From contig JABIXC010000017.1 of assembly GCA_018666775.1 (NCBI GenBank), positions 62,001-126,000 of the forward strand: DNA of 64,000 bases, given 5' to 3'. Positions 4,785 through 15,459 of the stretch are shown here, piece by piece. The stretch is from Rhodospirillales bacterium. Lineage in GTDB: Bacteria; Pseudomonadota; Alphaproteobacteria; SMXQ01. The notes under the pieces were generated by a model. The model was not told where the DNA came from. It searched no databases and saw only the letters and a list, made by a program, of their open reading frames with translations. Position numbers and translations under genes: made by a program. How positions within the stretch are numbered: position 1 is the stretch's first letter; each line of letters starts with the position of its first letter.

Positions 4785-6083
4785 TTATTTACAAGCGATA
4801 GATTTTGCAGATGAGCCCTTATGGGTAAAGGTGCAGCTCATGCCGACTTTCAGCTTCGAACGCTTGACCTTCTTGCCACCGATGGTGACTTTGGTCCGGC
4901 GGCCGGAAACCTTAAGCTTCTTCTTGGCTTTTTTGCCTTTTACTTTTCCCTTGTAGGAAACCCGGCGACCACCTTTTTTGATCTTGGTGATCTTGCCCGT
5001 GGCGACGATGGTCGGCACTTTGGCAATTTGGACCTTTTCGAGGGGCAGGGCTGCTTTGCGCAGACCTGCGACGACGTCCGGTGGGGAGGCATACATTTGG
5101 GTCAGTAAGTCCGTGACTTCCTGGCCGGTGGCCGGGTTGATGGTCATGCGTGATTTTTTGGCATTGGCAAGAAGGTCTTTGTCCTTCATGGCCATGTCAA
5201 AGGCTGTACGCAGGGCTGCAACGCGGGCTTTGGGAACCTTGGGTCCGACCACATAGGGACGGCCAAAATCGCCAACGGCAAATTTCAGGAACAGGATTTG
5301 GCGGGTCTTTTTATCTTTGGCAAAATCAAGGGCCAAAGGCACGTCTTTCAACAACGGATCATTGTTCCGCTTTGAACCCATCTGGAACAAGATATTGACC
5401 TTCTTTTCCTTGAGCCATTTCAGGCGGCGGACTTTAAAGCTGGACCAGGAAAATGTGGCCCGGCCAAAGACTTCACCGCGCTGCATGGCAAGATCAACTT
5501 CAGACCCACCGGGATAGCCAGCGATGGGCCGGAACTTCATCCCCAAAAGGTTGCGGAAAACATTGGCCGTCACGATGGAATCGGTGACCACACCGGTGCC
5601 GCCAACAATCAGTTCTTTGGTGTACAGGTCTTTATAGGTTTTGATCCCAGACGTGTGCCAGGCAATGGCAATGGAGGTTTCCCGGTTGGACGATCCAATC
5701 CAGTTGAATTTAAGCGGATCAAACTGGGCTTTGGAATCCTTGCCATTGACCAGAGGTTCGACCGGTACACCGCGCTGAACGGCACCGATAAACGTGCCAT
5801 CCTGGGGGGCGGCATTGTACAGGTAGTTGGTGGCAACGATACTGCCACCACCGGTCTTGTTCTTTGAAATGAGCGTGGGTTTGCCCGGAATGTATTTCTG
5901 CATGTAACGCGCAGTCAAACGCGCGTAACGGTCATAGCCACCACCAGATGACAGGCCGATGAGCATGGTCATCCGCTTGCCTTTATAGAAATCAGAAATG
6001 GCATCGGCACTGGCCGTACTTGGCTGGAAGGAAAAGGCCATGCCAAGTGCGGCAATGGCTGTTCCCAATTGTGATAGTTTCAT
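4785..6083 (-). CDS. TctC/Bug-like periplasmic binding protein with extra Lys-rich C-terminal module, copy 1
   Basis: A 432-residue exported protein. Residues 1-26 are a signal peptide (cleavage near ASA-DA). Residues ~30-345 follow the TctC/Bug solute-binding family: YKGKRMTMLIG, SSGGGYDRYARL, NKTGGGS, GRPYVVGP and the DAM-like helix. Residues ~360-432 are a basic beta-rich appendix ending KVGMSCTFTHKGSSAKSIACK-like (one Cys pair), shared with the paralogue at 14182-15459 and not part of the usual family. No TctA/TctB membrane genes occur in the window, so it may serve a transporter elsewhere or a sensor. It is the last gene of the Mo-enzyme operon, behind an AGGGAGA Shine-Dalgarno. Confidence 0.85.
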   Translation of the reverse strand: MKLSQLGTAIAALGMAFSFQPSTASADAISDFYKGKRMTMLIGLSSGGGYDRYARLTARYMQKYIPGKPTLISKNKTGGGSIVATNYLYNAAPQDGTFIGAVQRGVPVEPLVNGKDSKAQFDPLKFNWIGSSNRETSIAIAWHTSGIKTYKDLYTKELIVGGTGVVTDSIVTANVFRNLLGMKFRPIAGYPGGSEVDLAMQRGEVFGRATFSWSSFKVRRLKWLKEKKVNILFQMGSKRNNDPLLKDVPLALDFAKDKKTRQILFLKFAVGDFGRPYVVGPKVPKARVAALRTAFDMAMKDKDLLANAKKSRMTINPATGQEVTDLLTQMYASPPDVVAGLRKAALPLEKVQIAKVPTIVATGKITKIKKGGRRVSYKGKVKGKKAKKKLKVSGRRTKVTIGGKKVKRSKLKVGMSCTFTHKGSSAKSIACK

Positions 6084-6126
6084 AACATTCTCCCTGTTAT
6101 CGTTTAAAAGTCTGTTTTTGGACTAC

Positions 6127-8094
6127 TTAAGCGCCGCCGCGACCGGCACCTTTATTGCTGCCTTTTTCGCCACGGCCACCATCGGCACGTCTGCGGGCCA
6201 AAGCATCATCGGGCTCAACCCAGCAATCGATCATGAAGCGGCCACCCTTGGCGACAATTTTCAGACCGCGTTCCATTTCGGCGATCAATTCTTCGGCATT
6301 ATGAACCGGGCCAGAGGTATCAAAGCCCTGCGCTGCGGCAAAGCCCGTAAGGTCGGGTGCCGGATCATCAATGCGAAGGCCGATCCAGCGGTTATCGGCA
6401 TTACGCCCCCGAACATCGGCAACGTGATGCTGATGGGCTTCATCATTGAAGTAGGAGCGGTTGTTCATGACCACCACCATCATCGGGATGCGCATGCGCG
6501 ATGCGGTCCAGAGCGCGTTAACGCCCATGAGATAATCGCCATCACCCAGGGTGAACACCGGCAAACGGCCAAGGTCACGAAGCCCCAGCGCCATGCCAAC
6601 AGCCTGACCTGGGCCAGAACCAACCCCGCCGCCGCCATCATTGCCCATAAAGGCAAGGGGATCGCGGAACCGTGCAACAAAGCCATTATAGCCGGTCGAG
6701 GCACGGCCAAGGGCGGCCTTTGGATGATCATCCATGAATTTGCCGGTAATCTGGTGGAAGTCCACCGCCGTCATCAGGCCAGTCTTGATTGGCTTGATTT
6801 TGGCCTGGCGGGTTTTAGTCCAATGGCGAATGCGTGCCACGGCGGGTTTCACTTTGGCTTTGGCACCCGGTTTGACACGCAGTTCATCCAACATCTGGTT
6901 GATGAAGGTATCGGGATCTGCCCCGATGTTCAGATCAACCGCAGGCATGGCCTGATAATCCATGTTCCAGCCATTGTGCATGGTCTGGTCCACGGTGACC
7001 TGAATGACCGTTGCATTGGTTGGGTCCTGGGTTTGGTTGTTGCCGGTGCAAAGCCGCAAGAATCCAGCAAAATCCAGCCAGTCAAGATTGAGGATCACAT
7101 CGGCCTTTTGGACCAGTGATTTGGTTTCCTCTGACGGGCGGAAACAGCTGGGGGCGACATGCTGGGGATGTTCGGTTGGGAACACTGCTCCGGAACGCAG
7201 ATGGGTTTGCACCGCACAGCCAAGCGCTTCGGCCAAACGAATGCGGTTGTTCCAGGCTTTTTTGTCATGACCAACTGGGCCGATCATCATCAAGGGCAGT
7301 TTTGCACCCTTGATCAATTTGATGGCTTCGCGGACCTGGGATCTGGATGCCGAAGGCGGATCGAACGGTTCATAACGATCCACGGACGGGATTTTGATGT
7401 TTTTCACCGGTTCTTCCTGCAAGCCCGCATCCAGACAGACATAGGTCGGTCCTGTGGGCACGGTCCGGGCGATCTGGTTGGCCCGATAGATCGATTCAAC
7501 AATCGCTTCATGGCCCTGGGGCTCATCATCCCATTTGATGTAATTGCGGATCAGTGCTGCATGGTCCTTGGTGGTGTGAATCCAGTCGATCCAGGGGCGA
7601 CGCTTGTTGGCATCGATGGGACCGTTGGCACCAAAGATCACCATCGGCACTCGATCGGTATAGGCGCTGAAGATGGCCATGGAGGCATGCATCAGGCCGA
7701 CATTGGTGTGAATGGCAACGGCCATGGGTTCGCCGGTTACTTTGGCATAGCCATCGGCAATGGCGACGGAATGTTCTTCGTGCAGACAGATCAGCATCTG
7801 CGGGTCTTTGTTGCCAAGATAGTTGACGAGGGAATCATGGAAGCCGCGATAACTGGCACCGGGGACCAGGGCCATGTATTTGAAATCGATCTTGCGAACG
7901 GTTTCGGCCATGATGTCACTGGCCCAACCCAAACGGGGATTGCCCAATTTGGCGGGGCGATCCAGCTGATTGGTTTTTTTGACTTGGGCTGATTTCTTAG
8001 CTGCAGCCTTTAACGTGGCGGCATTTCTGAGCGATGTTTTCTTTGCGGGCGCCTTTTTCTTAGGTGCGGCGCGCTTTTTTGTGGCTTTGGCCAT
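6127..8094 (-). CDS. Thiamine-diphosphate-dependent enzyme (acetolactate synthase/benzoylformate decarboxylase-like) with Lys-rich N-tail
   Basis: A 655-residue ThDP enzyme. The Pyr domain has the catalytic Glu in LHEEHSVAIADGYAKVTGEP (about residue 106). A central domain follows. The PP domain carries GDGD (about residues 516-519) and the NN of VVVMNNRSY, the standard GDG-x-NN cofactor motif. Residues 1-45 are a histone-H1-like Lys/Ala/Pro tail absent from ordinary family members. Family reactions are decarboxylation or carboligation of 2-keto acids. Lying between the Mo transhydroxylase pair and a binding protein, it likely handles a keto acid or ring-derived product of that pathway, which is inference. 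SD is AGGGAGA. The last ~25 residues are also rich in Gly/Arg. Confidence 0.85.
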   Translation of the reverse strand: MAKATKKRAAPKKKAPAKKTSLRNAATLKAAAKKSAQVKKTNQLDRPAKLGNPRLGWASDIMAETVRKIDFKYMALVPGASYRGFHDSLVNYLGNKDPQMLICLHEEHSVAIADGYAKVTGEPMAVAIHTNVGLMHASMAIFSAYTDRVPMVIFGANGPIDANKRRPWIDWIHTTKDHAALIRNYIKWDDEPQGHEAIVESIYRANQIARTVPTGPTYVCLDAGLQEEPVKNIKIPSVDRYEPFDPPSASRSQVREAIKLIKGAKLPLMMIGPVGHDKKAWNNRIRLAEALGCAVQTHLRSGAVFPTEHPQHVAPSCFRPSEETKSLVQKADVILNLDWLDFAGFLRLCTGNNQTQDPTNATVIQVTVDQTMHNGWNMDYQAMPAVDLNIGADPDTFINQMLDELRVKPGAKAKVKPAVARIRHWTKTRQAKIKPIKTGLMTAVDFHQITGKFMDDHPKAALGRASTGYNGFVARFRDPLAFMGNDGGGGVGSGPGQAVGMALGLRDLGRLPVFTLGDGDYLMGVNALWTASRMRIPMMVVVMNNRSYFNDEAHQHHVADVRGRNADNRWIGLRIDDPAPDLTGFAAAQGFDTSGPVHNAEELIAEMERGLKIVAKGGRFMIDCWVEPDDALARRRADGGRGEKGSNKGAGRGGA

Positions 8095-8177
8095 ATGTAT
8101 TCTCCCTGATCAGTTTTTTGTGGTGCACCGGAATTAAAGTGCAGATGTTGGATTGATCCTAGCAGTGTTTGTTTTCC

Positions 8178-9059
8178 TTATGCCCCTTTTTTAGCTTCCA
8201 GACGGAAAACGTCAAGGGTCAGACTATCTTTAAGGTCAAAATCGACCGACTGGGGCTGAAAGCCCTCTTTGGTGATGGTGATGTGATAGCCATCCCCCGT
8301 TGCATCGGATGCGGCGTCCAGGCGATCAATTTTAAAATCGCCAAAGGCATCCGTTGTGGTTTCAGCAATGGTTCTGGCTGTGGCTTTATCGCCCTTTGAC
8401 AGGCTGATGGTGGCGTCTTTGATACATTCATCGCGGCCGTTAATAATGCCGGCAACGGTGCCTGCGGCAAAGAATTTCCGGAACAGGTAAAGGTTCTTGT
8501 AATGGACCCTCGGTTTTGTAGCGGCAGCCGGATCAAGGTCTTTCAGGCTTTCGGCTTCTCTCAACCGGGCCATTTCTGAATCTTCAACCTTCAGGCTTTT
8601 GAAGGCCCCGGTAGGACAAGCGGTCACGGCCCTTGGTTCTTCCCAGCCACCATCTAAAAGATGGGCATCAAAAGGCCACGCCTGGGGAATGTTCAGTTTA
8701 TCGTTCCAGAAAACCGCATCATAAGGACAGGCTTCCATGATGGCCTTTTGGCCTTTGGACTTTTCCGGATCAATAATAACAATGCCATCGTCGCGTTTTG
8801 TGACGGCACCATTTTCTGCCGCCTTGATGCAGGGGGCATCATCGCAATGCTGGCACATGACCGGCATATAGGCGACTTCAACCAGTGGGGGCTGGCCCCG
8901 TTCCTTGCGTTTGATGTCAATCCAGCGGTGACCGTGTTTGGGCATTTCTGCGGCCACACCGGGCCATTCATTGCCAACATATTCATCCTGGGCTGAAAGG
9001 GTGCACAGATTGCAATTGGTGCATTCAGCGACGTCAATGACGATGTTCCATTTTTTCAT
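8178..9059 (-). CDS. Iron-sulfur small subunit, pyrogallol transhydroxylase/resorcinol hydroxylase family
   Basis: A 293-residue electron-transfer subunit. Residues 1-190 match the ferredoxin part of transhydroxylase small subunits, with cysteines at 13, 16, 19, 69, 72, 77, 111 and 148, enough for two [4Fe-4S] clusters. Residues ~205-290 form a transthyretin/carboxypeptidase-regulatory-like beta domain, also seen in the Pelobacter enzyme. The position of a further CxxC in the Pelobacter protein reads AWPFD here (127-131), so the third cluster seems lost. There is no signal peptide, so it is cytosolic. The gene starts 12 bp after its large-subunit partner with AGGAG in front. Confidence 0.9.
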   Translation of the reverse strand: MKKWNIVIDVAECTNCNLCTLSAQDEYVGNEWPGVAAEMPKHGHRWIDIKRKERGQPPLVEVAYMPVMCQHCDDAPCIKAAENGAVTKRDDGIVIIDPEKSKGQKAIMEACPYDAVFWNDKLNIPQAWPFDAHLLDGGWEEPRAVTACPTGAFKSLKVEDSEMARLREAESLKDLDPAAATKPRVHYKNLYLFRKFFAAGTVAGIINGRDECIKDATISLSKGDKATARTIAETTTDAFGDFKIDRLDAASDATGDGYHITITKEGFQPQSVDFDLKDSLTLDVFRLEAKKGA

Positions 9060-9071
9060 ATCAATCGCTCC

Positions 9072-12000
9072 TTACGCATCACTTGCCAGAGGGACTTCGC
9101 CTTCGCGGGCCGTCTCATAGCTTTCAGAAATATATTCGGTTTTACCATCCCAAAGTTCGATCTCTACCAGCGCGCTAGAGGCCGCCATGGAATGGGCCTG
9201 TTTTATCTGAGACCGTTTGGGCGATAACAGATTGAGACAGCCCCCCCGATCCACAGAACGACCGGGCTCACCCATGGGTTCGTAATTGGCTGATGATTCA
9301 TAACCGTGCGCGATGCCAGATGGCAGGCGATTGGTGATCGATGCGGCACAAATGACGGCACCGCGTTCATTGAACACCTTGACCAGATCGCCATGTTTGA
9401 CATCACGCTTGGCGGCTTCTTCTGCCCCCAACCGGATAACCCAATAATAATGTCCATCCACCAAAAGCCGATGGTCGGGGATATCGTTCAGGAAGCTGTC
9501 TTTGCCGTCCCCTTGGGTGTGGAAACTGAATCTTGGGTGCGGGGTTAACAGCTGGAGTGGGTATTTGGCAAAGCGCGCCGCATCGATGGGGCCTTCAAAG
9601 GCCGGGTTGTATTTAACAATCGGTGGGCGTTCAGGATCATCTGCGTCAAACCGCTTCAGGCTTTCGCATTCAAATTCCAGTTTGCCCGATTGGGTTTGCA
9701 GCCCTTCCAGGAATTGTTCGGAATAATCTGATGGCAGGGGGTGGGGCTCCGGCGTGTCTTTTTTGCGGCCATCGGCAAACCAGTTCAGCGCCACAGGTGC
9801 GCGCAGTTTTTCTTTTTCTGCTGGCACGACGTAATAGCCTTTTTTCAGGAATTTCTTCCACGAAATATGTTTCGGAAGATCGGTGGCATCAAACTGGCGT
9901 TTGACCCAATCGAGTTCCGTCATGCCTTCGGAAAAATAAGCAGAGAGCCCCAGACGTTTCGAAATGTCGTTGAAGATTTCAAAATCAGATCGGGATTCGC
10001 CCATGGGTTCAATGCATTTGTGTTGGAACACAATGACGCGGTGGTTCAACTGCATCTGTCCGTGATGGGCATAGCCGCCAAGGCCAGCCCATTCGGAAAT
10101 ATCGGGGCGTTCAAAATTGGTGCACGCGGGCAAGATGACATCGGCAAAGTTTGCTTCGCCTTCCATCCAGATGCTCTGGTTGACGACGAATTCCAGATTT
10201 TTGGAACGATACGCCGCAACCCAGCGGTTTGAATCGGGCATGGTGGCAATGGCCGACCCGCCATATTTATAAAGCATGCGAACCGCAGCCTGGCCCGGTT
10301 TCGGATAGCTGATTTTGTTGAACTGGGACTCGATGGCTTTGCCATCCCACATGTACCCTTCAGCCTTGCCTTTTAAAATGGCTTCGGGGAATTCAAGCCG
10401 TGGAATTTTTTGGCTGGCCGTATTCATGGTGGGCAATTGCGGCATGCGTTGAAACAGTTCAACCGCCATGGCCGTGTGTTCCATATCACCTGACATGCCG
10501 CCTTCGGCATAGCCCGGGAAATAGAAGTTGAAATCAACCGGTGTGCCCCATTGTAAATTGCCAAAATTGATGCCGGGTTTGCCAAGGCCCTGCATGGCCA
10601 TCAGGCAGACGCAGACCCGTGCCCATTGGATGCCGGTGGCATTGCGACACGCACCGCCATGGCCATTGCCCCAACCGCCTGCACCCAGATAGGTGCGCTT
10701 GGTGCCCCATTCGCGGGCAAGTGCGGTGATGGTTCGGGCGGGAACGCCGGTTTCGGCTTCTGCCCATTCAGGGGTTTTGGGAATGCCGTCTTCTTCGCCC
10801 AACAGATAGGATTTCCATTTATCAAATCCCGTGGTGCGTTTTGCGACGTAATCTTTGTCATACAGGTCTTCAGTGATCCACATATAGGCCAATGCCATGC
10901 CCAGTGCGGGTGACGTGGTGGGCTTTGGCGCGATCCATTTGCCACCAATAAATTGTGCGGTGTCATTGTAGTAGGGATCAATGTGAACAATTTTGATGTC
11001 GCTGTCTTTTAGCCATTGGCGCCGGACCGTGCCTTCGCATGCGCCGTAAGCACCGGATGTGGCATCGGGGTTGGCTGACCAGAACACGATCATTTCGCAG
11101 TTCTTCAGGCAATCTTCGACGGTGCCATAGGATTCGCACTGCCCAACCCGCAGGCTGTGGCCCCAATGGTGGGTGGCACCCCAGTACCAGCCTTCCCAGC
11201 TGTCGGGGTTGTGGTGAACTTCGGTGTGGCCGATGGCATTCATGAACCGGAAATTGGCCGAAAGGTAATAGCCAATATTGCCCCAGGTGTGATGGGACCC
11301 ATGGGAAGACGCAATGGCGCCCGGGCCGTGGTCTTTTTTCATGCGCTTGATTTCATCACCAACAATATCCAGCGCTTCATCCCAGCTGATGCGTTCATAG
11401 CCAGAGACGCCCCGGTTCTGAGGGTTGCGCTCACCTTTGGGATCGAAATCGACCCGCTTCATCGGGTGCAGGCAGCGATCAGGGGAATAGATGATGGATT
11501 TAAAATTCTGGCCATGGGGGGCAAGGGTGGTTTTACGCGGTGGGGTATAGGATTTGCCCTTGGCCTTGATGGTCCAGGGTTGGGGATCATCATCATCAAA
11601 GACGATGGGGGTGATGCGCAATATCTTGCCGTCTTTCACATATGAAAAGACCGGGCCGCCATTGGTCATGGAGGTGTAACGCATGGAACCATCGGCTTGT
11701 TTGGTGCCGTATTTCCAGCCTTGGGTCTGGGTCAAAAGGATCGTGCGGGTGAACCAGCTGGTTAGTTCGTCCGGGCCAGTCATGGATAGCTTAAAATCTT
11801 TCAGGGCATCGATTTGTTCTTGCTGATCGATGGGGGGCATCAAAAGCCCTGCGGCTATTTTTGCATTCTTGAAGCTGAGGACAACTTCGGCATCCCCATC
11901 AATGCCACCACTTGATGTCATCCGGCCATCTTTGAAACGGAACCAACGGCCTTCTGAATCATCGGCCGTTTTAAACTGGGCCGTGAAATTCTTTTCAGAT

Positions 12001-12092
12001 AACCGTTTCGCAAAAGCCGGATAGCGCCACGCCGAATAGCGCATCACCAGTTTAAGGCCAAAGAGAATCAGCGAAAATAGGGAAAGCTTCAT
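9072..12092 (-). CDS. Molybdopterin large subunit, pyrogallol transhydroxylase/resorcinol hydroxylase family, with N-terminal SCP2-like extension
   Basis: A 1006-residue bis-MGD protein of the DMSO reductase family. From residue ~141 it follows the Pelobacter acidigallici transhydroxylase closely: [38 protein letters not shown] with Ser346 as likely Mo ligand, [10 protein letters not shown], and [16 protein letters not shown]. As in that enzyme there is no N-terminal [4Fe-4S] cysteine motif and no Tat signal. Known relatives move or add hydroxyl groups on pyrogallol, phloroglucinol or resorcinol. Residues 1-140 are extra: a hydrophobic start, then an SCP2/sterol-carrier-like domain. The operon context (extradiol VOC, FAH hydrolase) suggests polyphenol catabolism; the exact substrate is unknown. 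Confidence 0.9.
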
Positions 12093-12142
12093 AATTGGGT
12101 CCCGCGTTGTCTTGTCTGCTGCTTGAGTGATTTAGTTAGTTT

Positions 12143-12178
12143 CTTATTTCTCTTATTTTTCTTATTTTTCTTATTTTT
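12143..12178. repeat. 9-bp tandem repeat overlapping a stop codon
   Basis: Four copies of CTTATTTTT (the first with one change) run through the stop codon of the upstream FAH gene. Read on the minus strand in the FAH frame they give GAA-AAA-TAA repeatedly, so three in-frame TAA stops follow one another. Confidence 0.8.
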
Positions 12179-13025
12179 CTGCGGCGATCTGATTGACCAA
12201 TGTGCCAATTTTGCTGATTTCAATTTCGACCGTGTCGCCGTCCTTCATATAGACCTGTGGGTCGCGTTTATGGCCAACCCCGCCGGGGGTTCCGGTTGAA
12301 ATAATATCGCCTGGGCGCAGTTCCGTGAACGTCGTGATGTATTCGATCAAGGTGGGGATGTCGAAAATCATCAGGTCCGTGGTGGTGTTTTGCATCACGT
12401 TGCCATTCAGCCGCGTGGTTAGCTCCAGTTGGGTGGGATCACCCAGTTCATCGGCCGTCATCATCCATGGGCCGAAACCGCCGGTGTGGGGAAAGTTTTT
12501 GCCAGCCGTCCACTGAATGGTGTGGTTCTGGAAATCACGCACGCTGCCATCGTTGTAAATGGAATAGCCGGCAATGATTGAGGCATAATCTTTTGCTTTT
12601 ACGTGACGCCCGGCCTTGCCAATGATGATGGCCAGTTCGCCTTCGTAATCAAACCTGTCCGATGCTGAGGGCTTGATCATGGGGTGGTCGTGGCCGATCT
12701 GGGTATCGGCAAAGCGCAGAAAAAGTGCGGGGTGATCGGTGGGCGCGCGGCCGGTTTCTTCGCGGTGCGCTTTGTAATTGAGGCCCACACAAATAATCTT
12801 GTCCGGGTTGGTGATCACAGGAAGCAGGTCAATATCATCAACAGACAGGTCTGCAGATTGCCCATCGATTGCGGCTGTGGCGGCGGCAAAGCCATCCCCT
12901 GCAATCAGGGATTTAAGATCGGGATAGGTGTCGCCGATCCGTGATGTCAAATCAATGATGCCACCATCATCGGTAACCACGCCGTAATGTTCTGTGCCGT
13001 CTTTTGTATAGCTGGAGAGTTTCAT
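12171..13025 (-). CDS. Fumarylacetoacetate hydrolase family protein, copy 1
   Basis: A 284-residue cytosolic FAH-fold enzyme. The catalytic domain (from ~residue 75) shows KIICVGLNYKAH, the metal-binding FDYEGELAIIIG, the NDGSVRDFQ segment and the STGTPGGVGH loop. Family members hydrolyse or decarboxylate acylpyruvates and 2-hydroxymuconate-type products of meta cleavage. It lies between the extradiol-type VOC gene (66 bp upstream) and the Mo subunit, fitting hydrolysis of a ring-cleavage product. It has a paralogue at 18448-19380. Its stop lies inside a 9-bp tandem repeat. Confidence 0.9.
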   Translation of the reverse strand: MKLSSYTKDGTEHYGVVTDDGGIIDLTSRIGDTYPDLKSLIAGDGFAAATAAIDGQSADLSVDDIDLLPVITNPDKIICVGLNYKAHREETGRAPTDHPALFLRFADTQIGHDHPMIKPSASDRFDYEGELAIIIGKAGRHVKAKDYASIIAGYSIYNDGSVRDFQNHTIQWTAGKNFPHTGGFGPWMMTADELGDPTQLELTTRLNGNVMQNTTTDLMIFDIPTLIEYITTFTELRPGDIISTGTPGGVGHKRDPQVYMKDGDTVEIEISKIGTLVNQIAAEK

Positions 13026-13090
13026 CGGTGTTTCTTCCTGTGTTTGATTATTTTTGGTTTTAAATATTTATGTGCGCATCCATGCCTTTT

Positions 13091-13930
13091 TTATTTGCGC
13101 ATCCATGCGACACCCCAAAGATTAAGCGTATGGGGTTCATGGGGCCAAAGACGTGCGGGCATGTCTTTATCCATCAGTTCTATTTCAGCAGATAATTCCA
13201 CCATGTTGCCATCGGCATCGGGGATCATGAAAAACAGGTTGTTGCCCGGTCCATGGCGGCCCGGGCCCCAGCTAAGCTCCATCCGCATATCCCCCAGATG
13301 ATCCGCCCAGTCGCGGATGTCATTCCACGATGTTGTCTCCATGGAATAGTGATCAAATTTTGGCTCACGGGTATTGAACATGGCCTGGGAATGATGCTCG
13401 GGGTCTGCACGCAGGAACACGGCGGTCAGGGCGCCGTCTTCGTCTTTTACCTCATCGGAAATGACAAAGCCTAGCTTGAGCCGAAAATCAATCAATGCAT
13501 CCAGTTGCGGCGTGCCAACCACAGAGTGTTGAAGCCTGCCCGGCAATCGATCTGTGCCGGTGCTTTGGGCCTCAGGGGTGCCAAAGACCAAGGTGTTGCC
13601 ATCGGGGTCTTTGACGGCAAACGCTTCTTTACCAAACAAGGGGGTGGGGGATGGCAATGTTTCAATCCCCTGATCGGCAACATATGTTTTCAAGGCATGG
13701 ACGCGATCGACCTCGTCTATGGCAAAGGCAGAAAAGCCAAGCCCGTTGCGGGGGCCACGACCAATCAGGAAATTGCGCTCTGCCCCTTCAAGGTGCCACA
13801 GGCCATCGGTGACCTCTGAAATTTTTGGTTCCATCACACGCTGGTAAAAATCCAACAGGATGGCGGGCTGATCCGATGTGATCTTGATGTGATGCAACCG
13901 CGCTGGCCACAGCGGGGATTGGACTGTCAT
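13091..13930 (-). CDS. VOC superfamily protein, probable type I extradiol dioxygenase
   Basis: A 279-residue protein with four beta-alpha-beta-beta-beta modules. The C-terminal half keeps the Fe(II) facial triad of extradiol dioxygenases: His in LQHSVVGT, His in KFDHYSMET and Glu in NMVELSAEIE. The N-terminal half has lost the equivalent second His, as in classical two-domain enzymes. It probably opens a catecholic or trihydroxybenzene ring next to the hydroxyls. It is the first gene of the operon that continues with FAH, Mo large subunit, Fe-S subunit, ThDP enzyme and binding protein. Confidence 0.82.
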   Translation of the reverse strand: MTVQSPLWPARLHHIKITSDQPAILLDFYQRVMEPKISEVTDGLWHLEGAERNFLIGRGPRNGLGFSAFAIDEVDRVHALKTYVADQGIETLPSPTPLFGKEAFAVKDPDGNTLVFGTPEAQSTGTDRLPGRLQHSVVGTPQLDALIDFRLKLGFVISDEVKDEDGALTAVFLRADPEHHSQAMFNTREPKFDHYSMETTSWNDIRDWADHLGDMRMELSWGPGRHGPGNNLFFMIPDADGNMVELSAEIELMDKDMPARLWPHEPHTLNLWGVAWMRK

Positions 13931-14181: not shown

Positions 14182-15459
14182 ATGAAAACATTTAGATTTT
14201 TGAGTGGCTTAGCGGTTGCCTTATGCGCATTTGCCTTTGGCAGTGCTTCACAGGCTGCTGATTTTTACAAAGGCAAGCGCATAACGCTCTATGTGGCGGC
14301 AAGCCCCGGTGGCGGGTATGCATCTTATGCCCGGGCCATTGCGCGGCATTGGAACCGGCATCTTCCCGGTGATCCCCGGTTTGTGGTCAAACACAAACAA
14401 GGGGCACAGGGCCTGGTCGCAGCCAGTTATCTTGCCAACAAGTCGCGGCGTGATGGCACAGAAATTCTGGCATCCTATCGTGAAGCGGTGACGACATCGG
14501 CGCTTACCGCGAAAAGCGGTGTCAGGTTTGATGCCACCAAGTTTGGCTATATCGGTTCTGCCGATCAAGGTTACGGCGTTTGTGTCGCAGCGAAGCGAAT
14601 CAACGTTAAAAGCCTTGAGGATGCCAAGAAAAAGCCGGTGAGACTGGGCGCGACCCATCATCGTTCCCTTGGTTATTCATCGGCCTATTTCCTGAACAAC
14701 ATGTTTGGCACCCAATTCCAAGTTTATCACGGCTATCCAGCTGGTTCGGCCATTGTTCTGGCATTGGAACGGGGCGAAGTGGATGCCCGTTGTGGCTGGT
14801 CGGTATCGTCCATCAAGACGATGAAGCCGACCTGGATGGAAGGCAAAATGGTCAACATCTTGCTGCAACTGTCTTTGACGTCTCATCCGCAGTTGAAGGG
14901 CGTGCCGTTGGTCAAGTCTTTCGCTAAAACCGATGAACAGCGCCAATTGCTGAACTTCATCCTGACACCACAATCGGTGGGGCGTCCCTATATCGCACCC
15001 CCGGGCCTGCCGAAAGCACGGTTGGAGCTGTTGCGCACCAGCTTTATGGGGGTTTTGAAGGACAAAGAGTTCCTGAAAGACGCCAAAAAGCAGCGCATCG
15101 ACATCAACCCTGTCACCGGTGCGGAACTGGATGTCTTGATTGCCAATTTGTTCAAGACGGATAAGAAACTGATCGAACGGGCTTTGGAAGTCACAACCAA
15201 GTCCACCAAGGTCAAACTGGTCAAGGTCAAGATTCCCTGGCTGACCAGCAAGGTCAAGGTGTCCAAGGTGAAACGCAAAGGACGCAGGGTTTCCTTCAAG
15301 GCCGGTGGCCACAAGGTGACGGTGAAGGTCTCCAAGTCCAAAACGAAGATCACAATCGCTGGCAAAAAAGCGAAGCGGTCTGCGGTTAAAGCGGGCATGA
15401 CCTGCACAATCACCCATAAGGGATCAAAATCCCGGGCGAAGTCCATAAAGTGTGACTAA
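14182..15459 (+). CDS. TctC/Bug-like periplasmic binding protein with extra Lys-rich C-terminal module, copy 2
   Basis: A 425-residue paralogue of the protein at 4785-6083. Residues 1-25 form a signal peptide (SQA-AD). The binding domain shows FYKGKRITLYVA, SPGGGYASYARA, VKHKQGAQG and GRPYIAPPGLPKAR. Residues ~350-425 repeat the same basic beta-rich appendix: ITIAGKKAKRSAVKAGMTC and a final Cys. It stands alone, divergent from the Mo operon, with the SD AGGGAGA and a terminator right after it. Two such proteins on both sides of one promoter region suggest related ligands, perhaps the pathway substrate and a congener. Confidence 0.85.
   Translation: MKTFRFLSGLAVALCAFAFGSASQAADFYKGKRITLYVAASPGGGYASYARAIARHWNRHLPGDPRFVVKHKQGAQGLVAASYLANKSRRDGTEILASYREAVTTSALTAKSGVRFDATKFGYIGSADQGYGVCVAAKRINVKSLEDAKKKPVRLGATHHRSLGYSSAYFLNNMFGTQFQVYHGYPAGSAIVLALERGEVDARCGWSVSSIKTMKPTWMEGKMVNILLQLSLTSHPQLKGVPLVKSFAKTDEQRQLLNFILTPQSVGRPYIAPPGLPKARLELLRTSFMGVLKDKEFLKDAKKQRIDINPVTGAELDVLIANLFKTDKKLIERALEVTTKSTKVKLVKVKIPWLTSKVKVSKVKRKGRRVSFKAGGHKVTVKVSKSKTKITIAGKKAKRSAVKAGMTCTITHKGSKSRAKSIKCD

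Follow-up and report, generated by a model that had tools for sequence, protein, structure and literature searches.

A predicted C-terminal OB-fold module on TctC/Bug-type and other solute-binding proteins of a Rhodospirillales lineage

Two genes of the window (the whole stretch of 64,000 nucleotides analyzed here, from a Rhodospirillales genome) encode TctC/Bug-type periplasmic solute-binding proteins that carry an extra C-terminal module without counterpart in ordinary members of this family (Table 1). The question raised by this locus is what this module is and what it does on proteins that, in the usual picture of Gram-negative binding proteins, diffuse freely in the periplasm. The gene of protein 1 is on the minus strand (6083..4785), the plus strand at these coordinates containing many stops. 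Judged by eye, the N-termini of both proteins resemble Sec signal peptides. A preliminary description of this DNA had presented the two proteins as orphan paralogs sharing a Lys-rich, beta-type appendix of ~75 residues with two Cys.

Table 1. Coordinates of the two binding proteins, their modules and neighboring genes in the window, and of tctA loci elsewhere in the same genome
Feature	Position	Strand	Basis
TctC/Bug-type periplasmic solute-binding protein 1, 432 aa, C-terminal module	4788..6083	-	ORF; stop at 4785-4787
Predicted OB-fold module of protein 1, residues 356-432, Cys417 and Cys431	4788..5018	-	Profile match 356-432
TPP-dependent enzyme, directly upstream of protein 1 in the same orientation	6127..8094	-	Pfam TPP_enzyme N/M/C
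4Fe-4S protein, small-subunit-like	8178..9059	-	Pfam Fer4_11
Molybdopterin enzyme, pyrogallol hydroxytransferase large-subunit-like	9072..12092	-	Pfam Molybdopterin, AhtL-like_1st
TctC/Bug-type periplasmic solute-binding protein 2, 425 aa, C-terminal module	14182..15459	+	ORF, translation; member of TctC tree
Predicted OB-fold module of protein 2, residues 351-425	15232..15456	+	Profile match 351-424; stand-alone AlphaFold model
tctA loci abutting module-bearing tctC	C17:463-467 kb, C17:545-552 kb, C17:607-614 kb, C11:109-113 kb, C10:260-264 kb		

The Pfam TctC profile (PF03401) gives protein 1 a score of 21.8 bits, under the gathering score of 27, and the Pfam scan yielded no PF03401 match to protein 2; the cut-off is passed at 12 places of the window's own genome. 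The family profile matches 11 solved TctC/Bug sequences, with 4x9t the best (E 1.1e-24). The AlphaFold model of protein 1, which starts at residue 21 and comprises 412 residues (alignment of 64 sequences; mean pLDDT 95, pTM 0.87), has 4x9t as the best match of its body (Z 26.3 over 284 residues, rmsd 3.0). Model residues 11-326 align with solved TctC/Bug structures at Z 21-26, the values for other binding proteins falling to 13.7, and the two-lobed fold is held in common with 4x9t, TphC (7ndr) and Bug27 (2qpq) at Z 26-24. However, the solved proteins align only up to model residue ~326, in agreement with the earlier claim that ordinary TctC/Bug proteins end before the appendix, whereas the window proteins carry a further domain, predicted to be an OB-fold, with beta strands at model residues 339-411 (block pLDDT 94-98).

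Modeled on its own (protein 2; 91 sequences), the module again appears as a confident structure (pLDDT 91) with six strands. In this structure prediction, a check proposed in the preliminary description, the module is a six-strand OB-fold barrel, its topology following from the structural matches. The closest of these is CusF, a copper/silver chaperone (PF11604; 2qcp) that is also a small periplasmic OB-fold barrel (Z 9.0-8.7 over 64-67 residues; best 67 residues, rmsd 2.1), but the two share 12% identity, and the module lacks the conserved His/Trp/Met set, possesses two invariant Cys and is attached to binding proteins. Other structural matches, over residues 1-78, include PilY2, PriB and further OB folds. 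In Foldseek, the E-values are weak (best 0.005), so that the assignment is credible as far as the fold class but not down to a particular family. Ranked by E-value, the first match is 9fs9, the self-assembly domain of an S-layer protein from Viridibacillus arvi, which likewise belongs to an envelope protein; however, this S-layer is Gram-positive, identity is 11-14%, and the likeness may reflect only the common barrel arrangement. YgiW of the BOF type (1nnx), a small secreted OB-fold, is among the matches as well (E 0.05), but it is a free-standing protein, with no sequence relationship to the module found.

At the sequence level, Cys61, Cys77 and Gly58 (protein 2 module numbering) are invariant in 91 of 91 modules, and all 122 complete carriers have two Cys within their last 40 residues; these probably form a disulfide between the last two strands. 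The confident barrel and the invariant Cys rule out low-complexity filler, one of the findings that the preliminary description had named as contrary to its view. That description was accurate on the shared Lys-rich stretch, its two Cys and its beta character but erred on the terminal motif: the spacing is GM-x-C-x2-THKG (GMSCTFTHKG, GMTCTITHKG), not x3, and the motif does not end the protein, being followed by 9-12 further residues that include the second Cys. Moreover, in the module alignment, THKG is peculiar to the two window proteins, the family being variable at that place. Among the matches listed in a Pfam/NCBIfam scan of 27 modules, none was over the cut-off (best E 0.0009; at most three members per family); a single member gave a weak match to Pfam CusF (E 0.011), and comparison of the module sequence with the sequences of solved structures gave nothing credible. 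Being absent from Pfam and NCBIfam, the module currently goes unannotated. We regard its identity as a domain as firm; its function we infer below.

The module forms a family of its own and occurs on two unrelated classes of binding protein. The window's own genome (2.41 Mb, 98% complete) yields 42 matches to the module of protein 1, so that the two paralogs do share it, as described, but are far from being a mere pair; per genome, the E-values descend to about 5e-32, far beyond chance. Among 46 TctC-like proteins, namely those read from the module-match loci and related loci of this genome, 35 carry the module, 10 carry a lysine-rich tail, one carries neither and none carries both. The five non-TctC carriers are ABC-type binding proteins of the SBP_bac_8 family, one of which was identified by a Pfam scan (48.3 bits, cut-off 27), with the other four grouping with it. 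Immediately downstream of at least two of these lies a gene for a hydrophobic permease-like protein of ~590 residues, in one case along with an ATPase-like gene (neighbors judged by eye).

Complete C-termini are available for 132 carriers of TctC or SBP type (119 TctC-like with a single module, three TctC-like with two, and 10 SBP_bac_8-like), and in all of them the module comes last. In the own genome, the tandem double module occurs in two neighboring TctC proteins; their genes (L043, L253; C17:609-614 kb) are closely similar and adjacent, and are located beside tctA. A gene of ~380 aa near this pair resembles genes found beside the ABC-type carriers at C17:588-595 kb. In addition, the module exists in a free form, as a secreted protein of 101 aa consisting of the module alone and encoded between tctB and tctC of a complete tctA-tctB-module-tctC operon, in which tctB was recognized by position and hydrophobicity. 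This protein (L104:2553-2858; own genome C17:465552-465854) contains two additional Cys (CIKGAC). A similar free module protein adjoins a module-bearing TctC in two genomes of another genus.

The profile search across genomes, another check proposed at the outset, showed module matches in each of the 11 order genomes covered, from 7 to 68 per genome. Of 385 genomes sampled from the class, 10 have matches, namely members of the order, four representatives of a second family and one further genome, and among 398 drawn from the phylum, the window's own genome is the one that matches. A scan of contigs with a tighter alignment returned 55 loci, all from uncultured alphaproteobacterial, Rhodospirillales/Rhodospirillaceae or proteobacterial MAGs. 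In two genomes of genus g2, 88 and 107 TctC homologs are accompanied by 7 and 10 modules, respectively; given that most of the TctC proteins of this genus are without any appendix, TctC function does not require the module. The TctC expansion in relatives of the same family is very dense (88, 107 and 94 homologs in the genomes G001, G002 and G010, of 2.7-3.0 Mb).

The absence of tctA and tctB noted in the preliminary description holds for the window, in which no tctA was found, but does not extend to the genome, which encodes 12 tctA genes, all outside the window, with at least five of these loci abutting a module-bearing tctC (Table 1). The module-bearing tctC genes in tct operons are an observation that the description itself had set against its reading; as a marker of orphan status, the module is ruled out by these loci. 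Conversely, two TctC proteins that adjoin tctA are without the module (C17:224 kb, C10:137 kb). With 46 TctC proteins and 12 TctA in the own genome, most of the TctC copies are still unpaired. The expansion of TctC/Bug, with the majority of the members not beside tctAB, has been reported in Bordetella (PMC5812351) and Rhodoplanes (PMC5994714), and the genome of the window is alike in both respects. The word "C-terminal" is absent from the main text of the Rhodoplanes study of TTT systems (PMC5994714), and the literature covered, most subscription journals and preprints aside, offered nothing relevant to solute-binding proteins with C-terminal extensions or poly-lysine tails.

The lysine-rich tails of the 10 TctC proteins of the own genome are mostly KKKKKKKKKS-like and often follow a pair of Cys, with one short KKKKK. 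Runs of at least eight Lys codons occur in six genes of the entire genome, five of them TctC C-termini and the sixth TolA/TonB-like. On the TctC tree, 7-8 changes between the module and poly-Lys states are needed, at least three of them forced by well-supported branches, indicating that the module and the tail replace each other; the systematic survey of this alternation covers the window's own genome. In other genera of the order, poly-Lys tails occur on TctC and on phosphonate-binding proteins (PF12974). No such tails were found in genus g2, where the TctC proteins are near neutral. In relatives, the PF12974 proteins (L284-L288, L293, L299) end in 7-11 lysines, the kind of tail that is seen on the TctC paralogs.

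The module is typically strongly basic, with a mean net charge of +16.7 per 75 residues (range 0 to +28), and the two window proteins have a net charge of +12 per 100 residues, most of the window proteins being negative. However, module charge correlates with body charge across 119 proteins (r=0.72), and in genus g2 the modules carry almost no net charge, so that bulk charge cannot be the general mode of action; the near-neutral g2 modules rule it out as a general conserved property, and the bulk basicity of the module is a lineage habit. What persists in g2 are the Cys and six cationic positions. In the seven least charged modules, positions 21, 40, 42, 48, 52 and 56 are kept in six or seven of the seven, whereas positions 18, 22, 33, 49, 51 and 53 are mostly uncharged. 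Because they are kept while other lysines are lost, these six positions appear, from the alignment, to be a better candidate for a binding site than bulk basicity.

The occurrence of the module on two unrelated families of binding proteins and in a free form, its C-terminal place and its replacement by poly-Lys fit a role independent of the transporter. We tentatively propose, as the most likely of the readings considered, that the module is a common localization clip that retains its carriers by way of an anionic component of the envelope or of a partner that they share. Each window protein would then consist of a binding body followed by an OB-fold domain of ~75 residues that folds separately, the conserved cationic set (module R21, R/K40, K42, K48, R52 and K56) binding either the anionic component or a periplasmic partner common to the carriers, and the many additional lysines of basic lineages reinforcing this binding. 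Such a clip would keep its carrier close to the envelope regardless of the transporter served. Anchoring or binding of a polyanion, suggested in the preliminary description, is accordingly plausible, in contrast to contact with a TctC-specific sensor kinase, which is disfavored by the presence of the module on SBP_bac_8 proteins and as a free secreted protein. A broader version of the proposal, which we consider possible but less probable, is general C-terminal tagging, whereby an OB-fold clip or a poly-lysine tail, interchangeable on TctC-like proteins, with the clip found also on SBP_bac_8 and the tail also on phosphonate-binding proteins, would keep the protein at the anionic envelope surface independently of the transporter.

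Alternatively, the disulfide-linked OB barrel could pack on the binding protein as a cap that stabilizes it or aids its export, the charge being incidental to a basic drift of the lineage. The tracking of body charge by module charge is consistent with this possibility, as are the position of Cys and Gly as the most conserved residues of the module, the pTM of the two-domain model, which is compatible with a fixed arrangement, and the correlation between body and module distances (Mantel r 0.48), which points to some co-inheritance or coupling with the body. Nevertheless, the cap is an unlikely explanation given that the module is tandemly duplicated in two proteins, is present on another binding-protein family and is also secreted on its own, and that the poly-Lys tails replacing it in paralogs cannot be a folded cap. 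Still less likely, in our view, is docking to one common partner protein of the periplasm or membrane, be it a receptor, a sensor or the free module protein, that would funnel many binding proteins to few transporters: the excess of TctC over TctA, the free module protein within a tct operon and the conserved cationic set argue for it, but TTT-type as well as ABC-type families include carriers, the two module-less TctC adjoin tctA, and no partner gene was found. A CusF-like domain binding a metal or small ligand, for which the closest fold match speaks, is highly improbable, since the one His, two Met and one Trp of the CusF metal site are not conserved across the 91 modules, in which a single Met is near-invariant and neither His nor Trp reaches conservation at any position (at best 31/91 and 15/91, respectively), and since two Cys in the periplasm are more likely to form a disulfide.

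If the localization clip is real, a shared and replaceable C-terminal domain on dozens of binding proteins would imply that this lineage controls the location of its binding proteins, and the module offers a handle on the question of what many "orphan" TctC/Bug proteins do. For the two window proteins, we envisage that they could capture substrates of the adjacent catabolic genes and hand them to TctAB units encoded elsewhere. The gene of protein 1 is separated by 43 bases from that of the TPP-dependent enzyme. The context suggests that it is part of a minus-strand catabolic cluster together with this enzyme, the Fe-S protein and the Mo enzyme, which would make an aromatic or hydroxy acid a possible ligand of protein 1. 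The co-oriented set at 4785-13930 (-), which looks like an uncharacterized catabolic operon, comprises six genes, for a VOC/glyoxalase-like protein, an FAH-like protein, the Mo enzyme, its Fe-S subunit, the TPP enzyme and TctC protein 1. The pyrogallol hydroxytransferase-like Mo enzyme has ~140 extra N-terminal residues, and the N-terminus of the TPP enzyme is rich in Lys and Ala.
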